The position numbers and the translations under genes are program-made. The notes below the pieces were generated by a model, which ran no database searches, was not told where the DNA came from, and saw nothing but the letters and a program-made list of their open reading frames with translations. Positions 4,436 to 26,800 of a stretch of 34,922 nucleotides of DNA are shown here, piece after piece. The stretch's first letter is position 1; each line of letters opens with the position of its first letter. This DNA comes from a virus. The stretch covers positions 1 through 34,922 of IMG/VR virus record IMGVR_UViG_3300025849_000106; one strand, given 5' to 3'.

Positions 4436-5158
4436 ATGAAGGCTGAAGAATTATATAAAGATAATTTAAGGGATACTCATTGGTTGGGAAAGGTTGTTGA
4501 TACAGCTGATCCTTTAATTGAAGGTAGATGTCGAGTGATGGTATATGGTAAGTTTGATAAAATACCAACTGAATCTATTCCATGGGCAACATCTTCTAAT
4601 AGTAACATGATAGGCAGTTATTCTACTCCAAAATTAGGAGATATTGTTTCGGTCAGATTTGATAATGGAGATATTTACCATCCTGAATATACTTATACAA
4701 TTAACAGCAACGATAGAAATACATTTAAAACAGAAATATTAGAAGCAATAGGAGCTGAGGAAGCTGTTAAAGCACAATCAATTGTATATGATGTTGATAA
4801 TAAATTTAGAATCTATTATGAACCGAATGAAGGTTTAATAGTTTCAATGGGTGATGGAATTAAAACAGAGCCTTTTATAAATGTAAAACAAACGGGTGAA
4901 ATACACATTCATACTGATCAAGAAGGTAAGGTTGAAGTATTTACAGATGGAGACGTTGAGGTCAAAGGTAAAAAGGTACATGTTAATAGCCCAGCAGTTG
5001 AGCTTGGTGAACTTGCACTTGAACAAGTAATTAAAGGAAATACTTTTCAAGCTTTATTTAACACACATACTCACACTGGAAATTTAGGACTACCTACGAC
5101 TCCTCCTATGGTACCATTAACAGGAACAGAATTAAGTAAGATAACTAAAACAGAATAA
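4436..5158 (+). CDS. Baseplate central spike protein, gp5-like (OB fold plus beta-helix, no lysozyme domain)
   Basis: A protein of 240 residues. Residues about 15-95 form an OB-fold of the gp5/gpV type: WLGKVVD...DPLIEGRCRVMVYGKF, IPWATSS, then PKLGDIVSVRFDNGD. Residues about 145-205 are short alternating beta-strands (TGEIHIHTDQEGKVEVFTD, GDVEVKGKKVHVNSPAVELG), as in the intertwined beta-helix needle of phage spikes. At about 209-214 an HTHTG motif is followed by a Pro-rich tail; such His-rich tips can bind metal in phage spikes (established for P2/phi92-type tips; inferred here). T4 gp5 (575 residues) has a lysozyme domain between OB fold and needle; there is no room for one here. The gene lies downstream of the gp27-like hub gene, as expected for a hub-spike pair. 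Confidence 0.82.
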   Translation: MKAEELYKDNLRDTHWLGKVVDTADPLIEGRCRVMVYGKFDKIPTESIPWATSSNSNMIGSYSTPKLGDIVSVRFDNGDIYHPEYTYTINSNDRNTFKTEILEAIGAEEAVKAQSIVYDVDNKFRIYYEPNEGLIVSMGDGIKTEPFINVKQTGEIHIHTDQEGKVEVFTDGDVEVKGKKVHVNSPAVELGELALEQVIKGNTFQALFNTHTHTGNLGLPTTPPMVPLTGTELSKITKTE

Positions 5159-5688: not shown

Positions 5689-6888
5689 ATGATAGAAAAA
5701 CAAAATGCTGACTTTTTTGATAAAGATGGCAATTTCGACTGGGATGGATATGAGTCAACGTGTCCAAAAGTTTTAAGAACCCCAAACCCACACATAAAAG
5801 TAGTAAACGATAAGCATAAAGTATATAGTAGAGAGCCATATGCTCAGGAAATGTATAATAAGCTCATAGGTCACATTGAAGAAAATGACATTATTACTCA
5901 TATTAAATATGGATCTGCTTATAATGGTAAAGTGTTTGCAGTTGCAGACATGACTGCAAGTATTGACATTGGCTACAGGCAGCTTGTTTACGTTAATTTA
6001 GAAAAAGAAGATGATGAGTTTAAAGGTATGCAATCTGGAGATGAGGTTAGCGTTATTATTACATCATTAATGGAAGATGATAGGCAACCTATAATGGGCA
6101 GTGTTAGTGAAGGAACTAAACAGGCTACTTTCCAGGAAATGCTAAGTGCTATTGAAGAACAAGATACGGCATGGGTTGGTACAGTTAATAGAATGTTGTC
6201 TGCTGCTGGCTATATGGTTAATGTTAAAGGCATAGAGTGTTTTATGCCAGGTAGTCTTGCAGGCATTAATAAATTACATGATTTTGAAAGCATAGTAGGA
6301 CAAGAAATCTATGTTGTGCCAGTTAGTTTTTCTAAAGAAAGAAAAATAATGGTAGTTTCTCATAGAGCATATCTTAAAACATTAATTCCAGGTGCTATTG
6401 AAAAATTAAAAGAAACTGCAGGTGAATATATTACTGGAAGCGTTACAGGTTCTGCTAAATATGGAGTTTTCTGTGAATTCTCACAATGTTTAACTGGTAT
6501 GATTCATGTCAATGACTTAGATGGAGATACATTGGCTAGACATAAAAATAGAGAAATCGAACCAGGTGAAGAGATTAAGTTTAAAGTAAAAGATATTGTA
6601 TCTGATACTAAAATAACCTTGACTCAAAGAGACGATGTCGAATTAAATCCATGGTTAGAAATTAATAAGAAATTTAAAGTACCTTCTGAGGTTGAGGCTA
6701 CTGTAAAAACTTGTAAAGATTATGGTTTATTCGTAGAGTTAGAAGAAGGTGTAGTTGGACTATTACATGTTAGTGAAATTGGCGAGGATAATATTAAAAA
6801 ATACAAGCCAAAACAAACTATCAACGTTTTAATTACTAAAATAGAAGAAGATACTAAGAAGATATTCTTAAAATTGCCTAAGGAATAA
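5689..6888 (+). CDS. Phage-encoded ribosomal protein S1-like RNA-binding protein (four S1 domains)
   Basis: A protein of 399 residues. The two C-terminal S1/OB domains are clear: residues about 247-315 (ITGSVTGSAKYGVFCEF..., GMIHVNDL, FKVKDIVSDTKITLTQRD) and about 334-398 (VEATVKTCKDYGLFVELEE, GLLHVSEIG, INVLITKIEEDTKKIFLKL). Both carry the usual G-x-V...YG-F-V-...G-hHVS pattern. Two more divergent repeats can be made out at about 65-140 and 160-225 (AWVGTVNRMLSAAGYMVNV). The architecture is that of a shortened ribosomal protein S1, which binds single-stranded mRNA and helps its entry to the 30S subunit. The gene has its own upstream gap with a promoter-like motif and ends in a hairpin. It is the first of three non-structural genes inside the baseplate cluster. 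Likely role: directing host ribosomes to phage mRNA, or RNA protection; this is inference. Confidence 0.85.
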   Translation: MIEKQNADFFDKDGNFDWDGYESTCPKVLRTPNPHIKVVNDKHKVYSREPYAQEMYNKLIGHIEENDIITHIKYGSAYNGKVFAVADMTASIDIGYRQLVYVNLEKEDDEFKGMQSGDEVSVIITSLMEDDRQPIMGSVSEGTKQATFQEMLSAIEEQDTAWVGTVNRMLSAAGYMVNVKGIECFMPGSLAGINKLHDFESIVGQEIYVVPVSFSKERKIMVVSHRAYLKTLIPGAIEKLKETAGEYITGSVTGSAKYGVFCEFSQCLTGMIHVNDLDGDTLARHKNREIEPGEEIKFKVKDIVSDTKITLTQRDDVELNPWLEINKKFKVPSEVEATVKTCKDYGLFVELEEGVVGLLHVSEIGEDNIKKYKPKQTINVLITKIEEDTKKIFLKLPKE

Positions 6889-6940: not shown

Positions 6941-8254
6941 ATGCTAACATATCAAATTACAAAACATAAAGGTAAAGAAGATATTTTACAAGATTCTCTT
7001 GTCGGAATAGAGTTTGAATTTTATTCCGATAAGAGTCTTGAAGATACTCAAAAGGAGCTTGCTCAATTATTAGGTAAAAAGATTAGACTAGAGGATAAAG
7101 CACATAGTGACTTTGTGCCAACTGATAAAGAATTTAAAATTGAGCCAGATATGAGCGGGGGTAAAGGTCTTATAGAACTTATTACTGGTCCTATTCCATA
7201 TAACGTTGCAAGAAATATAATAATTAAAGCGTTAGGCTGGATTCAAGAAAATGGATATACTACTGAAAAAAGTTCAATTCACTTAAACTTAAGTTTTGAT
7301 CCTAAAAAGACTGGTAAAAGTAACCTTATTTCTAAAATGGATTCTCTTAAATTTGTTTTAGGATTTAATGAAACTGAGGTTTACAAACTATTTCCAAATA
7401 GAAAAGATAGTGTGTATGCAAAGTCTGTAAAATGGATAATGCCTAAAATTGACTATAATTATTATGAAGGTCAAAACATTAATTCGCATGTTTTTCATTT
7501 TGCTAAAGAAAAATACTATGGAGTTAACTTTGAAAAATTACAACAAGGTTATTTAGAATTTAGATATATTGGTGGTAAAGACTATGAAAAGAAAACTACT
7601 AATATTTTATATTTACTAGATCGTTTTCTACTACAACTTTGGTCAATTGCTAATCAAGCTAAATATACTGATTTAAATTATATAGAACTTAAAAAAATTC
7701 TTAATAGGAATCACAAGTTTACTGAAATATTAAAAGATTGGAGAAAGTTAAAAGACTATTATCCTGAAATTAATTTATATGTTGATTTAAAAGATAATGA
7801 AAAAATAATTGACATGTATTGGCCGAAGATATTAATGGAAGTTGTTAGATTAATTAGTCACGGTGGATTAAAAGAAGGAGACATTAATTATGATAGCGAT
7901 GTTAGTAGGGTGCAAGTAAGTGGTGGTAAATTGCCATATTGTTTTGGATTAAGTAATTATGATTTTGTTGACTGTGAACTTGCAGGTTCATTAAGTTTTT
8001 GTGATATTTTTAGAAGTCAAGTTAGCAATGCTACCCTATTAAGGTGTAATTTATACCAAGGCACCTCTGTCGAGGGTAGTAAAGTAGAATCATGTTATGT
8101 TAACAAAACATGCGAAGTTAAAAATAGTTACGTGTTTCAGTGGGATTCTGTATTTAAAGGTAAAATGATTGGAGGAATATTTAGACATGGTCAAATAGGT
8201 AGAGAAGCAGAATTTGACGGTACTGAAATAATAACAAGTAAAAAAATTAACTAA
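6941..8254 (+). CDS. Putative amidoligase (COOH-NH2 ligase family) with C-terminal beta-helix-like domain
   Basis: A protein of 437 residues. The N-terminal two thirds match the amidoligase (Amidoligase_2, glutamine-synthetase-fold COOH-NH2 ligase) pattern. It has GIEFEF at residues 22-27 with the two metal-ligand acids E24 and E26, then FKIEPDMSGGKGLIELITGP at about 65-84 (E68, E79), SSIHLNL with H114, and YLEFRYIGG near 204-212 with the EFR element. Such enzymes use ATP to form amide bonds between a carboxylate and an amine in peptides, amino acids or small molecules. Residues about 325-437 are a different domain of short Cys/Ser/Val-rich strands with roughly five-residue periodicity (DFVDCELAGSLSFCDIF...), like a pentapeptide or beta-helix fold. 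An acyltransferase gene follows after 1 bp, so the two probably act in one pathway. The substrate is unknown. Enzyme class is a confident motif reading; biological role is inference. Confidence 0.78.
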   Translation: MLTYQITKHKGKEDILQDSLVGIEFEFYSDKSLEDTQKELAQLLGKKIRLEDKAHSDFVPTDKEFKIEPDMSGGKGLIELITGPIPYNVARNIIIKALGWIQENGYTTEKSSIHLNLSFDPKKTGKSNLISKMDSLKFVLGFNETEVYKLFPNRKDSVYAKSVKWIMPKIDYNYYEGQNINSHVFHFAKEKYYGVNFEKLQQGYLEFRYIGGKDYEKKTTNILYLLDRFLLQLWSIANQAKYTDLNYIELKKILNRNHKFTEILKDWRKLKDYYPEINLYVDLKDNEKIIDMYWPKILMEVVRLISHGGLKEGDINYDSDVSRVQVSGGKLPYCFGLSNYDFVDCELAGSLSFCDIFRSQVSNATLLRCNLYQGTSVEGSKVESCYVNKTCEVKNSYVFQWDSVFKGKMIGGIFRHGQIGREAEFDGTEIITSKKIN

Positions 8255-8255
8255 G

Positions 8256-8849
8256 ATGATAATATGTAACATAAAGGAAGATAATAATAATTTTAGAAAA
8301 AACAATAAGACTAATAGTCCTGTAGAATATTCAGATCCATGGCTAGTTAGTATTACTTCTCTTAATAATGGAGATACATCTATTGCTTCTAAAGTTTATT
8401 GGATGAAAAGTTTTCCAGATACAAAACTAGTATTTGGTAAGTATGTTTCAGTTTCTTTAGGTGTTAAGTTTTTATTATCAGTAGATCATGCAAATAACAT
8501 ATCCGGATATCACTATTGTGGACCTAGTAACGTTTCTAAAGGAAACATAGAAATAGGTAATGATGTTTTAATAAGCATGGACGCTAAAATACTTTCCGGA
8601 GTTAAAATAGGAGACGGTGCTGTAATAGCAGCAGATGCGGTAGTAACAAAGGATGTAGAACCTTATTCTATTATTGGAGGGAATCCAGGAAAACATTTAA
8701 AGTATAGATTTAGTAAAGAAGATATTGCGTTTTTATTAGACTTACAGTGGTGGAATAAAGATAAAACGTGGATAGAAAATAATAAAGATATTTTGTTTAC
8801 TAAAAACGGTAATATAGATAAATTAAAAAAATTAATTAAAAATGAGTGA
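8256..8849 (+). CDS. Hexapeptide-repeat acyltransferase, CatB/XAT-like
   Basis: A protein of 197 residues with left-handed beta-helix (hexapeptide) repeats: KLVFGKYVSVSLGVKF, then NIEIGNDVLISMDAKILSGVKIGDGAVIAADAVVTKDVEPYSIIGGNPGK over residues about 60-148. A DH pair at 77-78 supplies the conserved catalytic-type histidine. The tail (RFSKEDIAFLLDLQWWNKD...) matches the C-terminal helix of the CatB/XAT subfamily, which is about 210 residues long. These trimeric enzymes move acetyl (or other acyl) groups from CoA to hydroxyls of sugars or small molecules. The N-terminal 45 residues are specific to this protein. It starts 1 bp after the amidoligase stop and overlaps the next gene by 8 bp, so it is cotranslated with both. 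Chloramphenicol resistance should not be assumed; a glycan or metabolite target is as likely. Confidence 0.85.
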   Translation: MIICNIKEDNNNFRKNNKTNSPVEYSDPWLVSITSLNNGDTSIASKVYWMKSFPDTKLVFGKYVSVSLGVKFLLSVDHANNISGYHYCGPSNVSKGNIEIGNDVLISMDAKILSGVKIGDGAVIAADAVVTKDVEPYSIIGGNPGKHLKYRFSKEDIAFLLDLQWWNKDKTWIENNKDILFTKNGNIDKLKKLIKNE

Positions 8850-9687
8850 TATTAGAAGCGGCGATAATATAGATTTAAGTCAAGGTAGAGACTATGGCAC
8901 TGATTGTTTAACTGAATTCTTAAATGAAATTGGTTCAGAAATAACAGGAGCATGTATGGTACCTCTTAATTTGCCACAAGCTGAAATAATAAACATTATA
9001 AAAAGAGCAGTAAAATGGTTCAGAAAAAATTATGAATATAGTCTTAGAGAAAACTATTTTCATGTACCTAATGGAGTTTTTAGTAGTCAAAGTTTTAAGA
9101 CAACTAGAACTTTAAACTTTCCAAAGGAAAATGCAACATCAGGTGCTGGTGAAGTCTTTTCAATATATGGAGTGTATGACCTTGCTTCTGGTTGGAATAC
9201 AGGTGGAAGTGGATTAGATTTAAGATTTGCAGGTGGAGCAGATTTTAATATTGAAAAAATGTTTTTTAGTAATTCATTTGCAGGAACGGGAGCAGCAGAA
9301 TCTGCAGAAGAACTTCAATATTATGTAATTAATCAAAGTTATTTTGATATGGCTCGTCAAATCCTAGAAAACCCTTTAAGTTTTCACTATTCACAACTAA
9401 CAGGTCAGCTTAAATTTATGGGAGATACACCTAAGGGAGATGTGATTATTGAATGTTATGAAAGTATAGAAAATTGTGCACTGTATAATGATGAGATATT
9501 TTTTAGATATGTCGCGGCTAAAGTAAAACAAGCGGTTGGTGCTAAATTAGGAGTCTTTAAATTCTCTTTACCAGGTGGTGTTGAAATTGATTATGATGGC
9601 ATTAAAGGTATGGGTGATGAGGAAATGGAAAAAGTACTTGAAGAAATTAAAGGAGATGAAGGAGTAGACTGGATGTTTCACTCATAA
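8842..9687 (+). CDS. Virion structural protein of the baseplate/neck type
   Basis: A protein of 281 residues. Residues about 45-80 carry NLPQAEIINIIKRAVKWFRKNYEYSLRE followed by a short aromatic strand. This 'EI..II..A..WF...Y' helix is, as I recall it, conserved in structural proteins of large Bacteroidota phages and cyanophages. A Gly/Ala/Phe-rich insertion (about 125-155) is followed by a second alpha/beta part (NQSYFDMARQILENPLSFHY, then GDVIIECYESIENCALYNDEIFFRYVAAKVKQAVGAKLG). The acidic tail ends near EGVDWMFHS. The ATG overlaps the stop of the acyltransferase gene by 8 bp, and gp25 follows 19 bp later. The position next to gp25 and gp6 suggests a baseplate-wedge component, but a neck protein cannot be excluded. 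No T4 gene number is assigned. Confidence 0.65.
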   Translation: MSDIRSGDNIDLSQGRDYGTDCLTEFLNEIGSEITGACMVPLNLPQAEIINIIKRAVKWFRKNYEYSLRENYFHVPNGVFSSQSFKTTRTLNFPKENATSGAGEVFSIYGVYDLASGWNTGGSGLDLRFAGGADFNIEKMFFSNSFAGTGAAESAEELQYYVINQSYFDMARQILENPLSFHYSQLTGQLKFMGDTPKGDVIIECYESIENCALYNDEIFFRYVAAKVKQAVGAKLGVFKFSLPGGVEIDYDGIKGMGDEEMEKVLEEIKGDEGVDWMFHS

Positions 9688-9706: not shown

Positions 9707-10063
9707 ATGGAACTATATATTAAAACATTAGGCGATCCTAACTATGACCCAAAAAGCGTAGATGTTGAGAATGAATTAAGTCAACTTTTAATTCAAATCG
9801 AAACTATTCTTTTTACAAATACTGGAGATGTATTGGGAAATAGTAGATTCGGCGCTGATTTAGAAAAATTAATATATGACTTTCAATTTAATGAATTTGA
9901 AGTAAAAAGAGCAATAGAAGATCAAATAGAAGAATATTGTCCAAATGCAGGCAAGTATAAAACTAAAGTAGATATTAATTTTACAAGAGGTGAAGTAAGA
10001 GATATTGCTCAAATAAATATAACAGTAGACTCTAAGTATTTGATTGGAGTTTATGTAAATTAA
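9707..10063 (+). CDS. 25: Baseplate wedge protein gp25 (GPW/gp25 family)
   Basis: A protein of 118 residues, close to the size of T4 gp25 (132). It shows the family order: an N-terminal helix (VENELSQLLIQIETILFTNTGD), the VLGNSRFGADLEKLIYDF element at about 40-60, then helix EFEVKRAIEDQIEEYCPNA and two closing strands (KVDINFTRGEV, QINITVDS). In T4 and related contractile systems gp25 is the wedge core that contacts the first sheath ring and binds gp6 and gp53; it is among the most conserved baseplate proteins. The adjacent gp6 gene, 11 bp downstream, fits. The usual EPR motif is replaced by YCPNAG. No enzyme activity is expected despite older 'lysozyme-like' labels for this family. Confidence 0.93.
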   Translation: MELYIKTLGDPNYDPKSVDVENELSQLLIQIETILFTNTGDVLGNSRFGADLEKLIYDFQFNEFEVKRAIEDQIEEYCPNAGKYKTKVDINFTRGEVRDIAQINITVDSKYLIGVYVN

Positions 10064-10074
10064 AAGATTAAAGA

Positions 10075-11928
10075 ATGGCAGATTTTAAATTTTTAGATAA
10101 GGCTAGAGTAACTGCTGGAAATATAGTAGAAGACTCTAGATCATATTTAAGTAGAGTCTATAAAAAGGCTGGTAATTATTTTACAACAGCTTCACCGTTT
10201 TCTCAAATACTTGAGGTAATGGCTGAAATGAATGAGATGCTCATGTTCTATATAGAGGACTCTACCGTAGAGCAGAATATTTATACAGCTCAACAGCCTG
10301 AATCTATTCACGGACTTGCAAGACTTGCAGGGCATGATGCTACTAGAGGTTTCGCGGCAACTGGAGAAATTCGTTTTAGATGGAAGCCAGGCGTGACTGA
10401 TGATGTTGCTGGAAGTAATTTAATAATTGAGCCAAATACTGAAATTCAATATGATAACAATGGTTTAATTTATTTTTTAAGAACTGATAAAGATGAGTTC
10501 TTATTACCAAAGAGTAGTAACGATTGGGTTAGAGCAAATATCATACAAGGTAAATTAGAGTCTCAAACCTTAACAAGTACAGGTGAAAGTATGCAAAGCT
10601 TTAATATTCAATCTAAAGGAACGACTGACCACGCTTTAGTAAAGGTAAGTGTTAATGGAGAACAATGGACAAAGTTTAATTCATTATACGAAATGTTAGC
10701 CACTGATAAAGGTTGTTTAGTAAAGACTGGAATTAGTGGAGGAATAGATGTTTATTTCGGAACTGGTAACTTTGGTATAATTCCACCAAGTGGAGCTACT
10801 ATCGAAATAGAATATATTAAATGTGATGGAGCAGCAGGAAATCTTAACCAAGCAGGAGATCTTACATTTAAATGGTTAGGTGAAGGTAAGGACTCAACCG
10901 GAGATACACATGACCTAAACGAATTATTAGAAATGGAGACTTCAACTTCTCCTTTTATGGGAGCAGATCCTGAGAGTACTGAATTTACGAAGTTAATGGC
11001 ACCGCTGGCAAGCAAGAGTTTTGTACTTGCAAATCCAGATGCATATGAATATTTCTTAAGTAGGTATGCGCAGTTTAGTTATTTAGATGCATATAATACT
11101 ACGAACGATGGTTATTTAGATGATGACAATGTTATTTATATTTTTGCAATTCCAGATTTAGAGAAAAGATTATTAAAAGGGACAGATTATTTTTCAGTTG
11201 ACGAAAGCGAGTTTTTCTTTGGAAAAGACGAAACTGATAGAATGCTTGGCGTAATTGAAGATAGTGGGCAGCAAATGGTTACAAGTGAAGCAATATTTGT
11301 AGAGCCGGAAGCTGTTAAATATAGAATGGATATTTCTATTAGATGGTTTGAAGGATTTAAGCAACAAGATATTTTCAATGACATTAGAGCGGCTATCTCA
11401 AATTATCTAATAAAAATTGTACGAAGAGATAAACTACCTAAGAGTGATATTATTGCAATCATAGAAGGTATCGAAGGTGTAGATGCGGTAAATGTACAAT
11501 TTGTATCAAGTATTGAGGAGCAAGCAAGAAAGGATGGATTTTATAATTATACTGAAGTTACTGTAACGCCATCAACTCCGGAATTAGAAGGAGCAGATGG
11601 AGATCAAAAAAGACTTGTATTTTTTAAGAGAACTGAAGAAATTAAGAAGATAGTATTAGAAAATCCTGACTTATTAATACCAGTTACTGGAGATAAGCAA
11701 ATAGAAGACTGGTATAATAAAATAGGACTTGACAGATATGGTGATATTATTTTAGACAAGCAAGAAGTTGCAATATTTAGAGGAGGCTGGGAAGATAGAG
11801 ATGGAGAACTAGTAAAAGATGAGCCATCGATTGGAGAAATGGCTTCAATGTCTTTATACTTTGATAACCCACCTGTGCCAAGAACTATTTATAGTAGAGT
11901 ACAAGCAGGAAATAGAAGCGATTTATAA
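10075..11928 (+). CDS. 6: Baseplate wedge protein gp6 (gpJ-like)
   Basis: A protein of 617 residues, close to T4 gp6 (660). Near residues 73-90 lies QPESIHGLARLAGHDATRG, the signature helix of gp6/gpJ proteins. After it come beta-rich parts (TGEIRFRWKPGV, NGLIYFLRTDKDEF) and the region GIDVYFGTGNFGIIPPSGATIEIEYIKCDG, which is diagnostic of the gpJ-like core domain. The segment VKYRMDISIRWFEGFKQQDIFNDIRAAISNYL is the conserved C-terminal part, and a variable end follows. In T4 gp6 dimers form the ring that holds the six wedges together, with gp25 and gp7 as direct partners; both are represented on either side here. The stop codon overlaps the next start (TAATG at 11926-11930), which couples translation. 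Confidence 0.92.
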   Translation: MADFKFLDKARVTAGNIVEDSRSYLSRVYKKAGNYFTTASPFSQILEVMAEMNEMLMFYIEDSTVEQNIYTAQQPESIHGLARLAGHDATRGFAATGEIRFRWKPGVTDDVAGSNLIIEPNTEIQYDNNGLIYFLRTDKDEFLLPKSSNDWVRANIIQGKLESQTLTSTGESMQSFNIQSKGTTDHALVKVSVNGEQWTKFNSLYEMLATDKGCLVKTGISGGIDVYFGTGNFGIIPPSGATIEIEYIKCDGAAGNLNQAGDLTFKWLGEGKDSTGDTHDLNELLEMETSTSPFMGADPESTEFTKLMAPLASKSFVLANPDAYEYFLSRYAQFSYLDAYNTTNDGYLDDDNVIYIFAIPDLEKRLLKGTDYFSVDESEFFFGKDETDRMLGVIEDSGQQMVTSEAIFVEPEAVKYRMDISIRWFEGFKQQDIFNDIRAAISNYLIKIVRRDKLPKSDIIAIIEGIEGVDAVNVQFVSSIEEQARKDGFYNYTEVTVTPSTPELEGADGDQKRLVFFKRTEEIKKIVLENPDLLIPVTGDKQIEDWYNKIGLDRYGDIILDKQEVAIFRGGWEDRDGELVKDEPSIGEMASMSLYFDNPPVPRTIYSRVQAGNRSDL

Positions 11929-21064: not shown

Positions 21065-24000
21065 ATGTTTGAAGGTGGAGATGACCCAATATTAGGTGGA
21101 GATGACACTGACTCAGGTTCTGGAGACGGCCCAACTGATTTTAACGACACTGATTCGGGTGACGGTGGAACCCCAATAGGAGATGGTGGAGATGACACTG
21201 ACTCAGGTTCTGGAGACGGTGGAGATAGTGGTGGAGACACTGATGGGGATGGAGTAGCTGATAATAAAGATGCTTTTCCAAACGATCCAACTGAAACTGC
21301 TGATACAGATGGGGACGGTGTAGGTGATAACACTGATGACTTTCCAACAGATCCTAACGAAGACACAGATTCAGATGAAGATGGTGTAGGTGATAATGCT
21401 GATGACTTTCCAACAGATCCTAGCGAAGATACTGATACCGATGGGGACGGTGTAGGTGATAACGCTGATGACTTTCCAACAGATCCTAACGAAGATACTG
21501 ATACTGACGGGGACGGTGTAGGAGATAACACCGATGCATTTCCAAATGATTCAACTGAAACTTTAGATTCTGATGGAGATGGTGTAGGAGATAACACTGA
21601 TACATTTCCAACAGATCCTAACGAAGACACTGATTCAGATGGAGATGGTGTAGGAGATAACGCTGATGCATTTCCAAATGATTCAACTGAAACTTTAGAT
21701 TCAGATGGAGACGGTGTAGGAGATAACACTGATGCATTTCCAAATGATTCAACTGAAACTTTAGATTCTGATGGAGACGGCGTAGGTAATAACGCTGATG
21801 CATTTCCAAATGATTCAACTGAAACTTTAGATTCTGATGGAGATGGTGTAGGTGATAATGCAGATGATTTTCCAACAGATCCTAATCAACAAGTAGCACA
21901 AATTAATCCTAATTTAATACAACAGGTAGCTGAATCTTTAGAAAACTTAAATGGAACGTCTGATGGAAGCGATCCTTATAGTAGTTTAACTCCTTTTAAA
22001 ATTAGAACAGATATAGAAAATAATGGAAGATATGACAACATTTCAAAACCATTACTTAGAACAAATCCTAAAATAAGTACTAATATAAAGTTAATAGTTG
22101 AAAATGATCAAATGTATTTAGAAAGTTTTAATGCGACTGATCAACTTGCTGCTTCTAATTATAAAAAATATTTAGTTAAAGAAACTGGATCATATTCATA
22201 TGATGTTGCTAAATTTTGGAATAAAGATTCTACACCAAATGATTTAGTTTATAAAGTAAAAAGAGATAATTCAGATTTTTCAGTATTAGATAGTTATGAA
22301 AAACAATTAGAAGAAACTTATAATTATGGTACTTCTATAAATTATAATAAACTATATGATAGTGAATTTGCAATGTTAGCTCCAATTTGGCTAGATAAAA
22401 AAGTACCTTCTAAGTTTTTAATCTATAGGGTTAAAGATCCGATAAACACAAAGAATTATTCTAATTCTGAAAATTTAGATAGAATTAATGAAATGCTTAA
22501 AAATGCAACATTAATAAAGACAATTGATCTTTCTAATGACTCTGCTATAGGTAAATATATTAGAAATTATGTAAATGATGATAGTTTTCCAGACTCTCCA
22601 TTAACTGTTTCATTTAATAAAGATGAACAAACTTTTTATAATGGTATAGATTTAGAAAAAGGCGGCTTCACTAGTAAAGGAGAATTTCACTATAAAGATA
22701 CTATTAAAACAGATAAACCTATTATAGAATATAATGATTTTATAACTGAAGGTTTTTCTAGAAATAATTTAGCATGTGCAAACTTAGTTAATTTAGAATT
22801 TTTATTTGATGATGAAGAAGCTGAAGAGTTTTCTATAAACAGGTATTTTGGAATTTATGTAGATGAACATAAATTAGGAGGAGGATCTGTTGATAATATT
22901 AAAAACGATTTATTTACATTTAAAAAAGACACACTAATCAGTGAAATGGATTTAAGCGATGTTGGTTCCGGAACTTATGTGTTACCTCATACTGTGTTTT
23001 ATCAAAATATGCCAATGTTAGGTTGGATTAAAAGTTTTTCAAATTATCATAATATTAAAAATGGAGTATATTGGAATCGTAAAAGTTATGAATTAAGAGC
23101 AGATACTAATAATACTGATTATAGTTTATTTACAGGAATTAAAAAGACTAATAAAAACATAGAGGTTATTGTTAATACAAGCGCAGCTTCTGATTTTATT
23201 AAAATTAAAATAATAGATAACCCATTAAATGGAGATGAGTTTAGACTTTTAAAATTAAAAAAACAAAGATTCACAATAAAGGTTGTAGTTAATGAAAATA
23301 CAGGGTCAGTAACATTAAATGATAATACTGGATTTGGTTATACAAGACCTTCAGGCGCAACTGAATATGACACTCTTCTAGATTTAGTAAACAATTGGCC
23401 TATCAGTGTAGGTAATACTTTTGAAAAGTATGAACCTTCTTTAATTCAACGTGGCAATAAATACTTTATAGAACTTGTAGAAAAGCAATATAATTTTGAA
23501 GAAAACCATAGTATTTTTTGTTTAAATAACAACTTAACAATATTAGATGTTAAAAAAACATACACTCATATTAATGTTGTAGAAAATACATTTATAGCCG
23601 ATAACAACGTTGATAAAGGTAGATTTGAAAATAATAGATTCTCAAATCAAGGTACTTTAAAGAATGTTGCAGATTCAATAAGTTCACTAATTAATAATTA
23701 TACTTTATTTAGTTCTATTGTTTTAGAAAATGAAATTATAATTTATTCAGACGTTGACGGTTATAATAGAGAATTAGGAATTTTTGTTAAAAATTTATCT
23801 TCTTCTAATTTCATAGAAATAAATGAGGAATCCTCTAATAAAAACATAACTTCTAACTTTTTATTAAATAATGAAGTTTGGTATTTAAAAGGAGGAAGTA
23901 ATGTAAATTCTTCAATTTATATTAATGAAGATGATGAAGATGAAATCAGTATAGGTGAATATTTATTAGATATTGAAAATAGATTTAATGAAGTATTAGA

Positions 24001-26800
24001 CATAGTAGATGATCCAAGAGAGATAAATTCTAATTTTAAAAGAGTAATTCTTAAAGATAAAAACAATGGTATAGAAAATATTGTTAATGTTTATAAAGAC
24101 TTTAAAATTGAATGGGGAATGTTTAGTGCATATGATATTCATGATATGGATTTTGATTTTTATGATGAATCTAATTCTGATTTAAAAGAATTAGATTTAG
24201 AAGATGACATACTTTACCCATTTTCAAATGCAATTGATGAACCTACTGGGCCTAATGGAGAAATGCCTTTAGATGCATATGCTGATGTTGAAAGGTTAAA
24301 GGAAGATTCTAATACTTATTTTTCTAATTTAATAAACATATTAGAAGATGAAAACAGTTTACCTGAAGGAAACACAATGACTAGAATATCTAGTGAATTT
24401 GAAAGACTACAAGAAAATAATACAACGGAATTTGCTACAATCTCCAGAGTAGTTCCATATATTAATAAATGGTCTCTAAAGGATAGCTTAAATGTTAGAG
24501 AAAACCCATACTTTCTAAATTTAAATGAAGCATTTGGTGAAACTAATTTTGCTGCTTCTCTAGAAAGTTTAGATAGAGACGAAACTAAAATGACACATGA
24601 ATGGTTCTATATAGACGAATACCCTACATACTTAGAGTATTTTGATGTCGATAATACTTTTAGTTATTTAAAACCTTCACCCAATATTGAATTTAGTTTA
24701 GATCATTTTAAAGATATAAATTTTGATTATTTTAAAACATATTTTGTAGGGACTGGGGCAATGGTTGGTTCTGATGAAACATTTGCTCAAACTTCATTTG
24801 GAAAATCTAGAACTTTTAAAAAGTATACAATAATAGAAGATGGAGGAGGTGAATCATTTGCCTCAACAATATTTAAAGGTATTAGATTTATACCTAAAAC
24901 TAGAAAAAAAATTGAAAATAACATAACTAAAGAATTTATTAAAAATAGTGAATTTAATGGTTATAGATTTTCAACCGTTTTAAAAACATCCTTTGATGTA
25001 AATTCTCCAAATGAATTAAAACTTAGAATAATTCAAAATAAAAAATTTAAATTTGTTGTTTTAATTTTAGATTTAAATTTATCAGATGATAACTTTAGAT
25101 GTTTAAATAGAAAATTATTATATGAACTAGATCATAAGTTACAAGATCTTTATAACTATTCAAATAGTATAGTTTCAGGTGCATTAGATTTAAGTTCAGT
25201 TAATTTAAGTCAAGGTCAAAGCACTGTAATAGATGGAATTACTCACAGCAGTGGTAGTGTTCCTTCATTTACTTCACAAATACTTAAAGATCCTATAACT
25301 GGTTCTTATGGTATTTTAGAAGTTGAAGTTGCTGGAATAACATATGAACTAAACATAGACAATGTAATAAATGATAATAAAATTTCAGTTACTGGGGAAA
25401 TGACAATAAATGGTGTTCCTCAACCTACTCAATTTTATACATTAAATCAATATAAGTCTGCAAGCTATTCATATAGAGGTGGAGGTATTTTTGCACATTC
25501 ATCTTTATTAAATTTATTATCTGCTGGAAATGTTGCAAATATTTTAAATACTACTAACAATGCTGAATATTTAACAGTTAATGCCGATGGAAGTATTGTT
25601 GAAAATACATTTTCTTTAGAAATGCAAGACGGTGTTGAAATAGTTAAAACTTCTAACTTATATCCTGAAATAGACATTAATAAACCTAAAGCGTTTGGAT
25701 TAACAAATGAATCTATTGGATATAGTATAGAATCTAGAAACGAATATTTTGCTCTTTTAACTAGACAAAATGGAAAATATACCGTAAATACTAAACCTAT
25801 TATTACATTTAGTGAACCTTTTTCTATGCATAAAATTGAACCGGGTGACGGATATGACTGGAGTGATGTATATAGAACTCCAATTGGATATGTTTATAAT
25901 TATAACATTGGTAATACTAATGAAAATAAACTTGCAATAGAATTATATAAAAAACTAAACGGGTGTGGGGTATTATTTAACATAGGTGAAGTTAAATCAC
26001 CTTTACATGATAGCCAATGGGGAACTATTAAAAATCATTTTTTCCATAAAGTAAATGACATAGACACTAGTGGAGTTATAAAACTTTCAGAATCAGATGA
26101 TTTATTACCTAAATATAATTTAATAAATGAAATTGCTATTGAAAAGAAAAACAAAAATGTTTTTATGTCAAGATGGGAAGATACTTACTACGTTAGATCA
26201 ACTAGCAGGGGAGGAATTCAATATATTCCAGGAACTAAAAATATTGTTGAAGAAAAAAGCTATATGAGTTCGAGCGCTATAAAATTAAATAAAGAATATG
26301 AAGTATTTGATTTTACACATGGAAGGTATGAGACTATTGAGGAATTAAACAATATTAAATTATTAGGTGAGTCTCAAAATGATATTAATTATATAGAAAC
26401 TGAGAGAGAAGTAATAATGGATTTTTATATGAGGGAGGCCGTTGTTAAAAAACTAAGTAGTTTAGGTTTAAGTTATACAATGAACAGGTTAGTAGAGGTT
26501 GAAAATAGTTTTGGTAGAATTGACACGTTAAGTGATGATATTAATGGATATGTTGCTGAAAATATAATACCTGCATTTTCAATAGATTCTATTAGATTAG
26601 CGGTATATGAAGGGAAAAAACAAATAACTACAATTGATATTATTTCTGATCCCTCTAATTTAAATGTAAATGGATATATCTCAGATGGTAATTTTACTTA
26701 TAAATTAGACCCTGTAAACCCTCTCAATTTTAGATTAATATATAATAAAAGAATAGGCTACTCTTATAAGATTAGACCTTTAATAAAAATAAAGTCATAA
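21065..26800 (+). CDS. Giant virion protein with N-terminal thrombospondin type 3 calcium-binding repeats
   Basis: A protein of 1911 residues. Residues 1-59 are a Gly/Asp-rich low-complexity lead. Residues 60-279 are ten 22-residue thrombospondin type 3-like repeats (DGDGVGDNTDAFPNDSTETL type), each with the D-x-D-G-D-G-V-x-D-N calcium loop. The remaining 1600 residues are large, beta-rich and Asn/Asp/Glu-rich, with a conserved-looking start of the main body (TNIKLIVENDQMYLESFNAT near residue 340) and KFWNKDSTPNDLVYKVKR near 395. No signal peptide or transmembrane segment is seen. It probably sits on the tail as a fibre or adhesin whose N-terminal stalk is stiffened by calcium. TSP3 repeats are common in outer-membrane and adhesin proteins of marine Bacteroidota and may have been acquired from a host. 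The body of the protein is not recognised. Confidence 0.75.
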   Translation: MFEGGDDPILGGDDTDSGSGDGPTDFNDTDSGDGGTPIGDGGDDTDSGSGDGGDSGGDTDGDGVADNKDAFPNDPTETADTDGDGVGDNTDDFPTDPNEDTDSDEDGVGDNADDFPTDPSEDTDTDGDGVGDNADDFPTDPNEDTDTDGDGVGDNTDAFPNDSTETLDSDGDGVGDNTDTFPTDPNEDTDSDGDGVGDNADAFPNDSTETLDSDGDGVGDNTDAFPNDSTETLDSDGDGVGNNADAFPNDSTETLDSDGDGVGDNADDFPTDPNQQVAQINPNLIQQVAESLENLNGTSDGSDPYSSLTPFKIRTDIENNGRYDNISKPLLRTNPKISTNIKLIVENDQMYLESFNATDQLAASNYKKYLVKETGSYSYDVAKFWNKDSTPNDLVYKVKRDNSDFSVLDSYEKQLEETYNYGTSINYNKLYDSEFAMLAPIWLDKKVPSKFLIYRVKDPINTKNYSNSENLDRINEMLKNATLIKTIDLSNDSAIGKYIRNYVNDDSFPDSPLTVSFNKDEQTFYNGIDLEKGGFTSKGEFHYKDTIKTDKPIIEYNDFITEGFSRNNLACANLVNLEFLFDDEEAEEFSINRYFGIYVDEHKLGGGSVDNIKNDLFTFKKDTLISEMDLSDVGSGTYVLPHTVFYQNMPMLGWIKSFSNYHNIKNGVYWNRKSYELRADTNNTDYSLFTGIKKTNKNIEVIVNTSAASDFIKIKIIDNPLNGDEFRLLKLKKQRFTIKVVVNENTGSVTLNDNTGFGYTRPSGATEYDTLLDLVNNWPISVGNTFEKYEPSLIQRGNKYFIELVEKQYNFEENHSIFCLNNNLTILDVKKTYTHINVVENTFIADNNVDKGRFENNRFSNQGTLKNVADSISSLINNYTLFSSIVLENEIIIYSDVDGYNRELGIFVKNLSSSNFIEINEESSNKNITSNFLLNNEVWYLKGGSNVNSSIYINEDDEDEISIGEYLLDIENRFNEVLDIVDDPREINSNFKRVILKDKNNGIENIVNVYKDFKIEWGMFSAYDIHDMDFDFYDESNSDLKELDLEDDILYPFSNAIDEPTGPNGEMPLDAYADVERLKEDSNTYFSNLINILEDENSLPEGNTMTRISSEFERLQENNTTEFATISRVVPYINKWSLKDSLNVRENPYFLNLNEAFGETNFAASLESLDRDETKMTHEWFYIDEYPTYLEYFDVDNTFSYLKPSPNIEFSLDHFKDINFDYFKTYFVGTGAMVGSDETFAQTSFGKSRTFKKYTIIEDGGGESFASTIFKGIRFIPKTRKKIENNITKEFIKNSEFNGYRFSTVLKTSFDVNSPNELKLRIIQNKKFKFVVLILDLNLSDDNFRCLNRKLLYELDHKLQDLYNYSNSIVSGALDLSSVNLSQGQSTVIDGITHSSGSVPSFTSQILKDPITGSYGILEVEVAGITYELNIDNVINDNKISVTGEMTINGVPQPTQFYTLNQYKSASYSYRGGGIFAHSSLLNLLSAGNVANILNTTNNAEYLTVNADGSIVENTFSLEMQDGVEIVKTSNLYPEIDINKPKAFGLTNESIGYSIESRNEYFALLTRQNGKYTVNTKPIITFSEPFSMHKIEPGDGYDWSDVYRTPIGYVYNYNIGNTNENKLAIELYKKLNGCGVLFNIGEVKSPLHDSQWGTIKNHFFHKVNDIDTSGVIKLSESDDLLPKYNLINEIAIEKKNKNVFMSRWEDTYYVRSTSRGGIQYIPGTKNIVEEKSYMSSSAIKLNKEYEVFDFTHGRYETIEELNNIKLLGESQNDINYIETEREVIMDFYMREAVVKKLSSLGLSYTMNRLVEVENSFGRIDTLSDDINGYVAENIIPAFSIDSIRLAVYEGKKQITTIDIISDPSNLNVNGYISDGNFTYKLDPVNPLNFRLIYNKRIGYSYKIRPLIKIKS
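21242..21901 (+). repeat. Ten tandem 66-bp repeats coding TSP3 calcium loops
   Basis: Ten in-frame 66-bp units run without interruption, each coding 22 residues with the DxDGDGVxDNxD calcium-binding core. Two unit types alternate: FPTDPNEDTD and FPNDSTETLD. Several neighbouring units are nearly identical at the DNA level (21600-21840), which points to recent duplication. The repeats also create long antisense open frames that are not genes. Confidence 0.95.

Follow-up and report, generated by a model that had tools for sequence, protein, structure and literature searches.

Amidoligases are a known enzyme family, and their presence in phages is known as well. For the amidoligases of phages phiEco32 and Marvin, roles on the cell wall or on metabolites have only been suggested in the portions of the literature available to us (PMC10580990, PMC11318856). 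One described phage cassette combines an amidoligase with a GATase and an ATP-grasp enzyme. Other phage proteins belong to the Amidoligase_2 family (PF12224), including those of the LUZ24/UFV-P2 type and AUZ94978.1 of the cultured jumbo phage Atu_ph07. The latter, encoded at 155929-157431 (L366 9930-11432), matches PF12224 with 30.2 bits and is annotated only as hypothetical. This more distant gene is separated from the portal gene by one other gene, on the opposite strand. Moraphages are large aquatic phages of Bacteroidota with mostly Flavobacteriia-like hosts, and the neck gene gp13 and the genes gp25 and gp6 are among those they share (PMC12619734). A protein named "glutamine synthetase" was reported in nine moraphages, and the word amidoligase is absent from the available text of the same paper (PMC12619734). 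In the titles, abstract openings, and passages retrieved on phage amidoligases in connection with tail, baseplate, virion, pentapeptide, or jumbo phage, no report of a tail-operon amidoligase was found.

We analyzed a 34,922-base stretch of viral DNA (the window), which is an entire virus record and consists mostly of tail genes. Its gene w08 shares with the phage Amidoligase_2 proteins a glutamine-synthetase-like fold and the EPDxS..ELV, HxN, KY..NF, and EFR motifs, and it differs from them in its predicted C-terminal beta-helix, its constant place in a tail/neck operon, and the lack of GATase_6 in the 17 records searched. The catalytic-domain fold is also common to w08 and the glutamine synthetase family (PF00120; GS, GmaS), whereas sequence identity was only 9-17% in the rows listed. 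The beta-helix architecture of the amidoligase and its fixed tail/neck placement look new.

The Tail Locus

The earlier note on this DNA had described two enzyme genes separated by 1 bp between spike and wedge genes. Both genes, w08 and w09, were recovered as open reading frames with this spacing (table 1). The spike side of the placement held: the spike-type gene w05 lies 5' of w08 and is followed by a small gene and the S1-domain gene w07. On the 3' side, the next gene is not a wedge gene but the T4-like neck gene w10, and the gp25-like and gp6-like wedge genes come after it. The site of w08 and w09 is between the spike and neck genes.

The best match of the AF2 model of w10 (pLDDT 69.5) was to a chain of 308 residues in the T4 portal-neck-tail complex (E 9e-11), and its fold matches to 9mkb and 9lu6 had E values from 9e-11 to 1e-9, with a TM-score of 0.55 at best. 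We read w10 as a T4-like neck protein, probably gp13, the gp13 identity being taken from the chain length. Upstream, w07 matched the rpsA profile at 2.5e-43, which is under the cut-off of that profile. Among eight other proteins of the window, the only Pfam match at 0.001 was that of w05, and w07, w08, and w09 had no match in PADLOC at 0.01.

Table 1. Genes of the tail locus and conserved motifs of w08, with positions in the window
Feature	Position	Strand	Basis or remark
w05, spike-type OB protein	4436..5158	+	PF04717 29.6 bits, cut-off 23.8; phrog_430
w07, S1-domain protein (rpsA-like)	5689..6888	+	PF00575 3e-25
w08, amidoligase, Amidoligase_2 type, 437 aa	6941..8254	+	AF2 model, PF12224 in orthologues, hhalign
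w08 motif E24-F-E26	7010..7018	+	E24, E26 in 137/137 rows
w08 motif E68-P-D70-M-S72 ... E79-L-I-T82	7142..7186	+	D70, E79 in 137/137 rows; S72, T82 in at least 99%
w08 motif H114-x-N116	7280..7288	+	H114 in 137/137 rows; N116 in at least 99%
w08 motif K191-Y-Y-G-V-N196	7511..7528	+	K191, N196 in 137/137 rows
w08 motif E206-F-R208-Y-I-G-G	7556..7576	+	E206, R208 in 137/137 rows
w09, Vat/CatB-like hexapeptide acetyltransferase, 197 aa	8256..8849	+	PF00132, VatA; accessory, between w08 and w10
w10, predicted T4-like neck protein, probably gp13	8842..9687	+	AF2 model match; phrog_211 head-tail adaptor
w11, gp25-like baseplate wedge, weak match	9707..10063	+	phrog_43 E 0.0045
w12, gp6-like baseplate wedge	10075..11928	+	phrog_219 1.5e-29

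Family and Fold of the Amidoligase

We found that w08 is an Amidoligase_2-type enzyme with a glutamine-synthetase fold. Its AF2 model, built from 47 sequences, reached pLDDT 90.7 and pTM 0.83, and residues 11-242 took the glutamine-synthetase fold, with Z 12.2 and rmsd 3.5 over 184 aligned residues (VIA-align). Foldseek matched the model to glutamine synthetase as well (E 9.9e-5), with a TM-score of only about 0.3, which is low because the match covers one domain. In the layout of the model, the ligase domain (about 11-242) is followed by a helical linker and by a predicted C-terminal beta-helix (about 309-437), where the residues are mostly in strands. The viral structure library BFVD contained one full-length match to w08 and many matches to phage proteins named "amidoligase enzyme."

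The window protein itself had no Pfam match at E <= 1. At the same threshold, PF12224 matched 12 of 22 aligned orthologues, and its curated cut-off (22 bits) was passed by half of the 10 orthologues scanned (L022, L051, L062, L071, and L069; 22.1-31.2 bits, L022 scoring best). When genomes were searched with PF12224 in six frames, none of 20 records exceeded the cut-off, although w08-bearing records were included, and the window likewise gave none; this profile is thus at its limit here. Alignment of the w08 family with the PF12224 protein of Atu_ph07 by hhalign gave 97.9% and an E value of 3.2e-13 over 201 columns, with the motifs aligned, and the same comparison with Escherichia coli GlnA alone found nothing. 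The amidoligase class that the earlier note had read from motifs was therefore borne out by the fold of the model, by PF12224 in the orthologues, and by the hhalign match to the Atu_ph07 protein. Similarity of the C-terminus to pentapeptide repeats was weak: PF13599 matched 6 of 22 orthologues at E <= 1, a pentapeptide match reached E 5.6e-6 in one of the 22, and the best score in 10 orthologues scanned was 22.5 bits (L083) against a cut-off of 38.

Conservation was measured on open reading frames of 400-520 aa, 235 of which were obtained from 236 w08 loci before identical ones were removed. The resulting alignment of 137 rows holds 136 distinct sequences, the window's own sequence being present twice. 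The motifs named in the earlier note were found in w08 as E24-x-E26, ELITGP (79-84), I113-H114, and E206-F207-R208, and the invariance of the core residues puts them beyond chance. In total, ten catalytic-type residues show no variation across the 137 rows (E24, E26, D70, E79, H114, R154, K191, N196, E206, and R208). Glutamine synthetase has an ExE metal motif that E24-F-E26 resembles and to which it presumably corresponds, and we take E24/E26, H114, and E206/R208 to be the counterparts of the metal and catalytic residues of that enzyme. In the predicted beta-helix, N316 and R415 are kept in at least 99% of rows. The gene is under purifying selection (dN/dS 0.07-0.12 in five pairs). Based on its fold and residues, w08 is very probably catalytically active.

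Taxonomic Distribution and Placement of w08

The distribution of w08 was studied in contigs collected by scans in which the best 80 matches were kept (of 198, of at least 560, of 125 for w10, and of at least 484). The 236 w08 loci come from three of these scans and include contigs fetched more than once, and some of them seem to represent one virus recovered from different samples. In the first scan, in which loci were chosen by w08, w07 lay upstream and w10 downstream in all 80 loci; the gap between w07 and w08 was 509-964 bases in 8 of them. The w10-anchored set was chosen without regard to w08, and there w08 lay directly upstream of w10 in 79 of 80 viral contigs. The 80th contig (L177) starts 47 bases before w10 and hence falls outside the 79; in two of the 79 (L181 and L220) only the 3' part of w08 is visible. 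The w10 matches in this set of 80 were all 63% identical or more, so this fixation was tested among close kin only. In the marine branch, the S1-domain gene, the amidoligase, and the neck gene are a conserved unit.

Outside this branch, homologues of w08 with 33-44% identity were found in six records of huge phages, which represent five distinct genomes of 462-735 kb because two records coincide in length and in match figures, and among the best 80 of at least 484 matches they also occurred in IMG/VR contigs of up to 508 kb. Gene order was mostly reshuffled in the third scan (L272-L314), which mostly covers the huge-phage branch. Another gene of the window type was present in the same stretch in 37 of its 43 loci, and in 36 of these it was one of w01-w05 or w10-w12. 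Five of the six loci where no such gene was seen cover at most 3 kb on one side. A scan of the w08 alignment against genome contigs yielded 27 pattern matches and no relative.

We found no convincing homologue of w08 in Lak-C1, Lak-B5, PTm5, pT24, MaF61, and PAU, all of which have related baseplate or tail genes; PTm5 gave a single weak, partial match of 13.6 bits. Tails of this kind can therefore be built without w08. Taken over these genomes, w08 belongs to the core genes of a single broad phage group and is not required by contractile tails generally.

These data bear on the proposal that w08 serves the neck or baseplate structurally or as a chaperone and has no more than the fold of a ligase. 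Its constant place between the spike and neck genes would suit such a part, as would the C-terminal beta-helix with its conserved N316 and R415, and for 78% of the virion proteins of Atu_ph07 no function is assigned according to the part of the virion study available (PMC6102473). However, a pure scaffold would not need ten invariant catalytic-type residues, and six related tails do without w08. We regard a structural role of this kind as quite improbable.

Phages of Prevotella, Tenacibaculum, Flavobacterium, and Chryseobacterium carry relatives of the tail genes, as do phages labeled Klebsiella, Sphingomonas, and others. The host of the window phage is likely a member of Bacteroidota. Moraphages resemble the phages carrying w08 in being aquatic and in having neck gp13, gp25, and gp6, as far as the available text describes them (PMC12619734), and possibly belong to the same lineage as the window phage.

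Salicola phage SCTP-2 encodes gp125, a weak relative of w08, together with gp124 (L087 10960-14720 for both). At 647 aa, gp124 is as long as one unnamed viral structure match, so the two may form a tandem pair near a ClpP-like gene. Neither protein had a Pfam match at 0.1, and profile A1 found nothing in the SCTP-2 genome at E <= 1.

The Acetyltransferase w09 as Accessory Cargo

The reading of the second gene as a hexapeptide acyltransferase of the CatB/Vat type stood. PF00132 matched w09 with 36.9 bits against a cut-off of 27, and VatA matched it at E 7e-29, with the DH motif and the C-terminal tail aligned; the His of this motif we assume to be catalytic. While w09 has the hexapeptide family, the DH motif, and the tail in common with VatA and CatB, it is 13 residues shorter around and after DH and scores under the NCBIfam equivalog cut-offs (120.9 vs. 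300 bits for Vat, 104.9 vs. 350 for CatB). We do not class it as a resistance gene. In the scan for cellular relatives, the best by E value was from Flavicella sediminum (48% identity over 117 residues), and another relative sits among genes read as glycan genes.

The earlier note had proposed that the two enzymes form a joint modification system. Such a system would agree with the single base between w08 and w09, with their equal G+C (0.285), and with the intactness of both genes in the two viruses that bear them, between which dN/dS was 0.115 for w08, 0.219 for w09, and 0.026 for w10. The acetyltransferase is thus kept under purifying selection in both carriers. However, it was present at the w08-w10 junction in only 2 of the 79 contigs and absent in the other 77. 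In the 236 w08 loci it was seen four times, representing two contigs each fetched twice: 3300009507_000012, where w08 and w09 are identical to those of the window, and 3300017783_000083. In LR756501 and the contigs of L143 and L144, related acetyltransferases are encoded tens of kb away from w08. What is conserved among relatives is the adjacency of the amidoligase and the neck gene; that of w08 and w09 is not maintained, which is an outcome that the earlier note had named as refuting its proposal, and we therefore reject the joint system as extremely improbable. Comparison of filled with empty junctions (L003, L004, L007, L010, and L014) revealed a clean insertion of w09 edged by a short AT-rich near-repeat.

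We read w09 as separate accessory cargo, whose most likely acceptor would be a glycan or another small molecule. Adjacency in one genome does not make a system, and the acetyltransferase is passing cargo in this operon.

Possible Partner Genes

GATase_6 was found in none of 17 huge-phage records, some of which are fragments, and in all 14 control genomes; it was rejected as a close partner of w08. In this respect the w08 group differs from the cassette of amidoligase, GATase, and ATP-grasp enzyme, since the glutamine amidotransferase partner is missing. GGACT (gamma-glutamylcyclotransferase), possibly a remover of gamma-glutamyl groups, was present in 4 of the 17 records (LR756501, LR756502, LR745206 with two copies, and the contig of L307) and lay at least 24 kb away from w08 in each of them, so that it was rejected as a close partner as well. 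Genes of the glutamine synthetase type (PF00120) were detected apart from w08 in 5 of the 17 records (the L289 and L285 contigs, LR756501, LR756502, and LR745206). We rejected the idea that w08 is a misread true glutamine synthetase, as PF00120 genes occur as separate genes. In the third scan, 28 of 43 loci had a member of one protein family no more than five genes from w08, and the one member scanned had a weak DHH-phosphoesterase match (20.6 bits, cut-off 28.1).

If the target of the amidoligase were a small metabolite, a host protein, or a peptide of the cell wall, the position of the gene in the tail operon would signify late expression only. The roles suggested for the phiEco32 and Marvin enzymes in the accessible parts of those reports (PMC10580990, PMC11318856) point in this direction, as does the carriage of GGACT by huge phages. 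Against this, GATase_6 is missing from all 17 records, GGACT is not close to w08 in any of the four that have it, and metabolic cargo would not usually keep to one spot next to a neck gene. We consider a substrate of this kind rather unlikely, though it is the main rival to the reading that follows.

A Candidate Substrate in the Neck or Tail

Because w08 stays between the spike and neck genes and GATase_6 is lacking in 17 of 17 records, a structural protein of the phage is our first choice of substrate. We propose, tentatively and at slightly less than an even chance, that w08 is a fixed late-operon ligase forming an amide bond on a virion protein, of the neck or the tail, before or during assembly. 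In this mechanism, the N-terminal glutamine-synthetase-like domain would use ATP and a metal to activate a carboxylate, which would then be coupled to an amine, as in Amidoligase_2 chemistry, and the C-terminal beta-helix would hold or position the substrate. The substrate would be a structural protein, from the neck or baseplate, that is produced at the same time; while still in the cytoplasm, either ahead of assembly or in its course, it would receive an amino-acid or isopeptide amide. As the step requires ATP, it would be cytoplasmic, and an extracellular substrate is therefore unlikely. Gene position alone does not reveal a substrate, and the virion-protein target is a guess.

To our knowledge, no enzyme-made amide bond has been described in a contractile-tail virion. 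A bolder and rather doubtful reading is that the huge aquatic phages of an entire clade rely on a dedicated, beta-helix-guided amide ligase for the covalent modification or cross-linking of a protein of the neck or tail during assembly. Since w08 keeps its place by the neck gene in many related phages, only a handful of late proteins need to be considered first as its substrate, and the proposal can be tested by mass spectrometry of virions.

Other Proteins of the Tail Region

The protein w07, which precedes the amidoligase in the marine branch, resembles a shortened ribosomal protein S1. According to PDB titles, a T4 neck complex was assembled with Hfq, another RNA-binding protein; a link between the S1-domain protein and Hfq in the T4 neck would be speculation. 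Farther downstream (21065-26800), the window encodes a tail-region protein of 1911 aa that has no Pfam match at 0.001. Near its start it has many D-T-D-G-D-G-V repeats, which resemble calcium-binding repeats.
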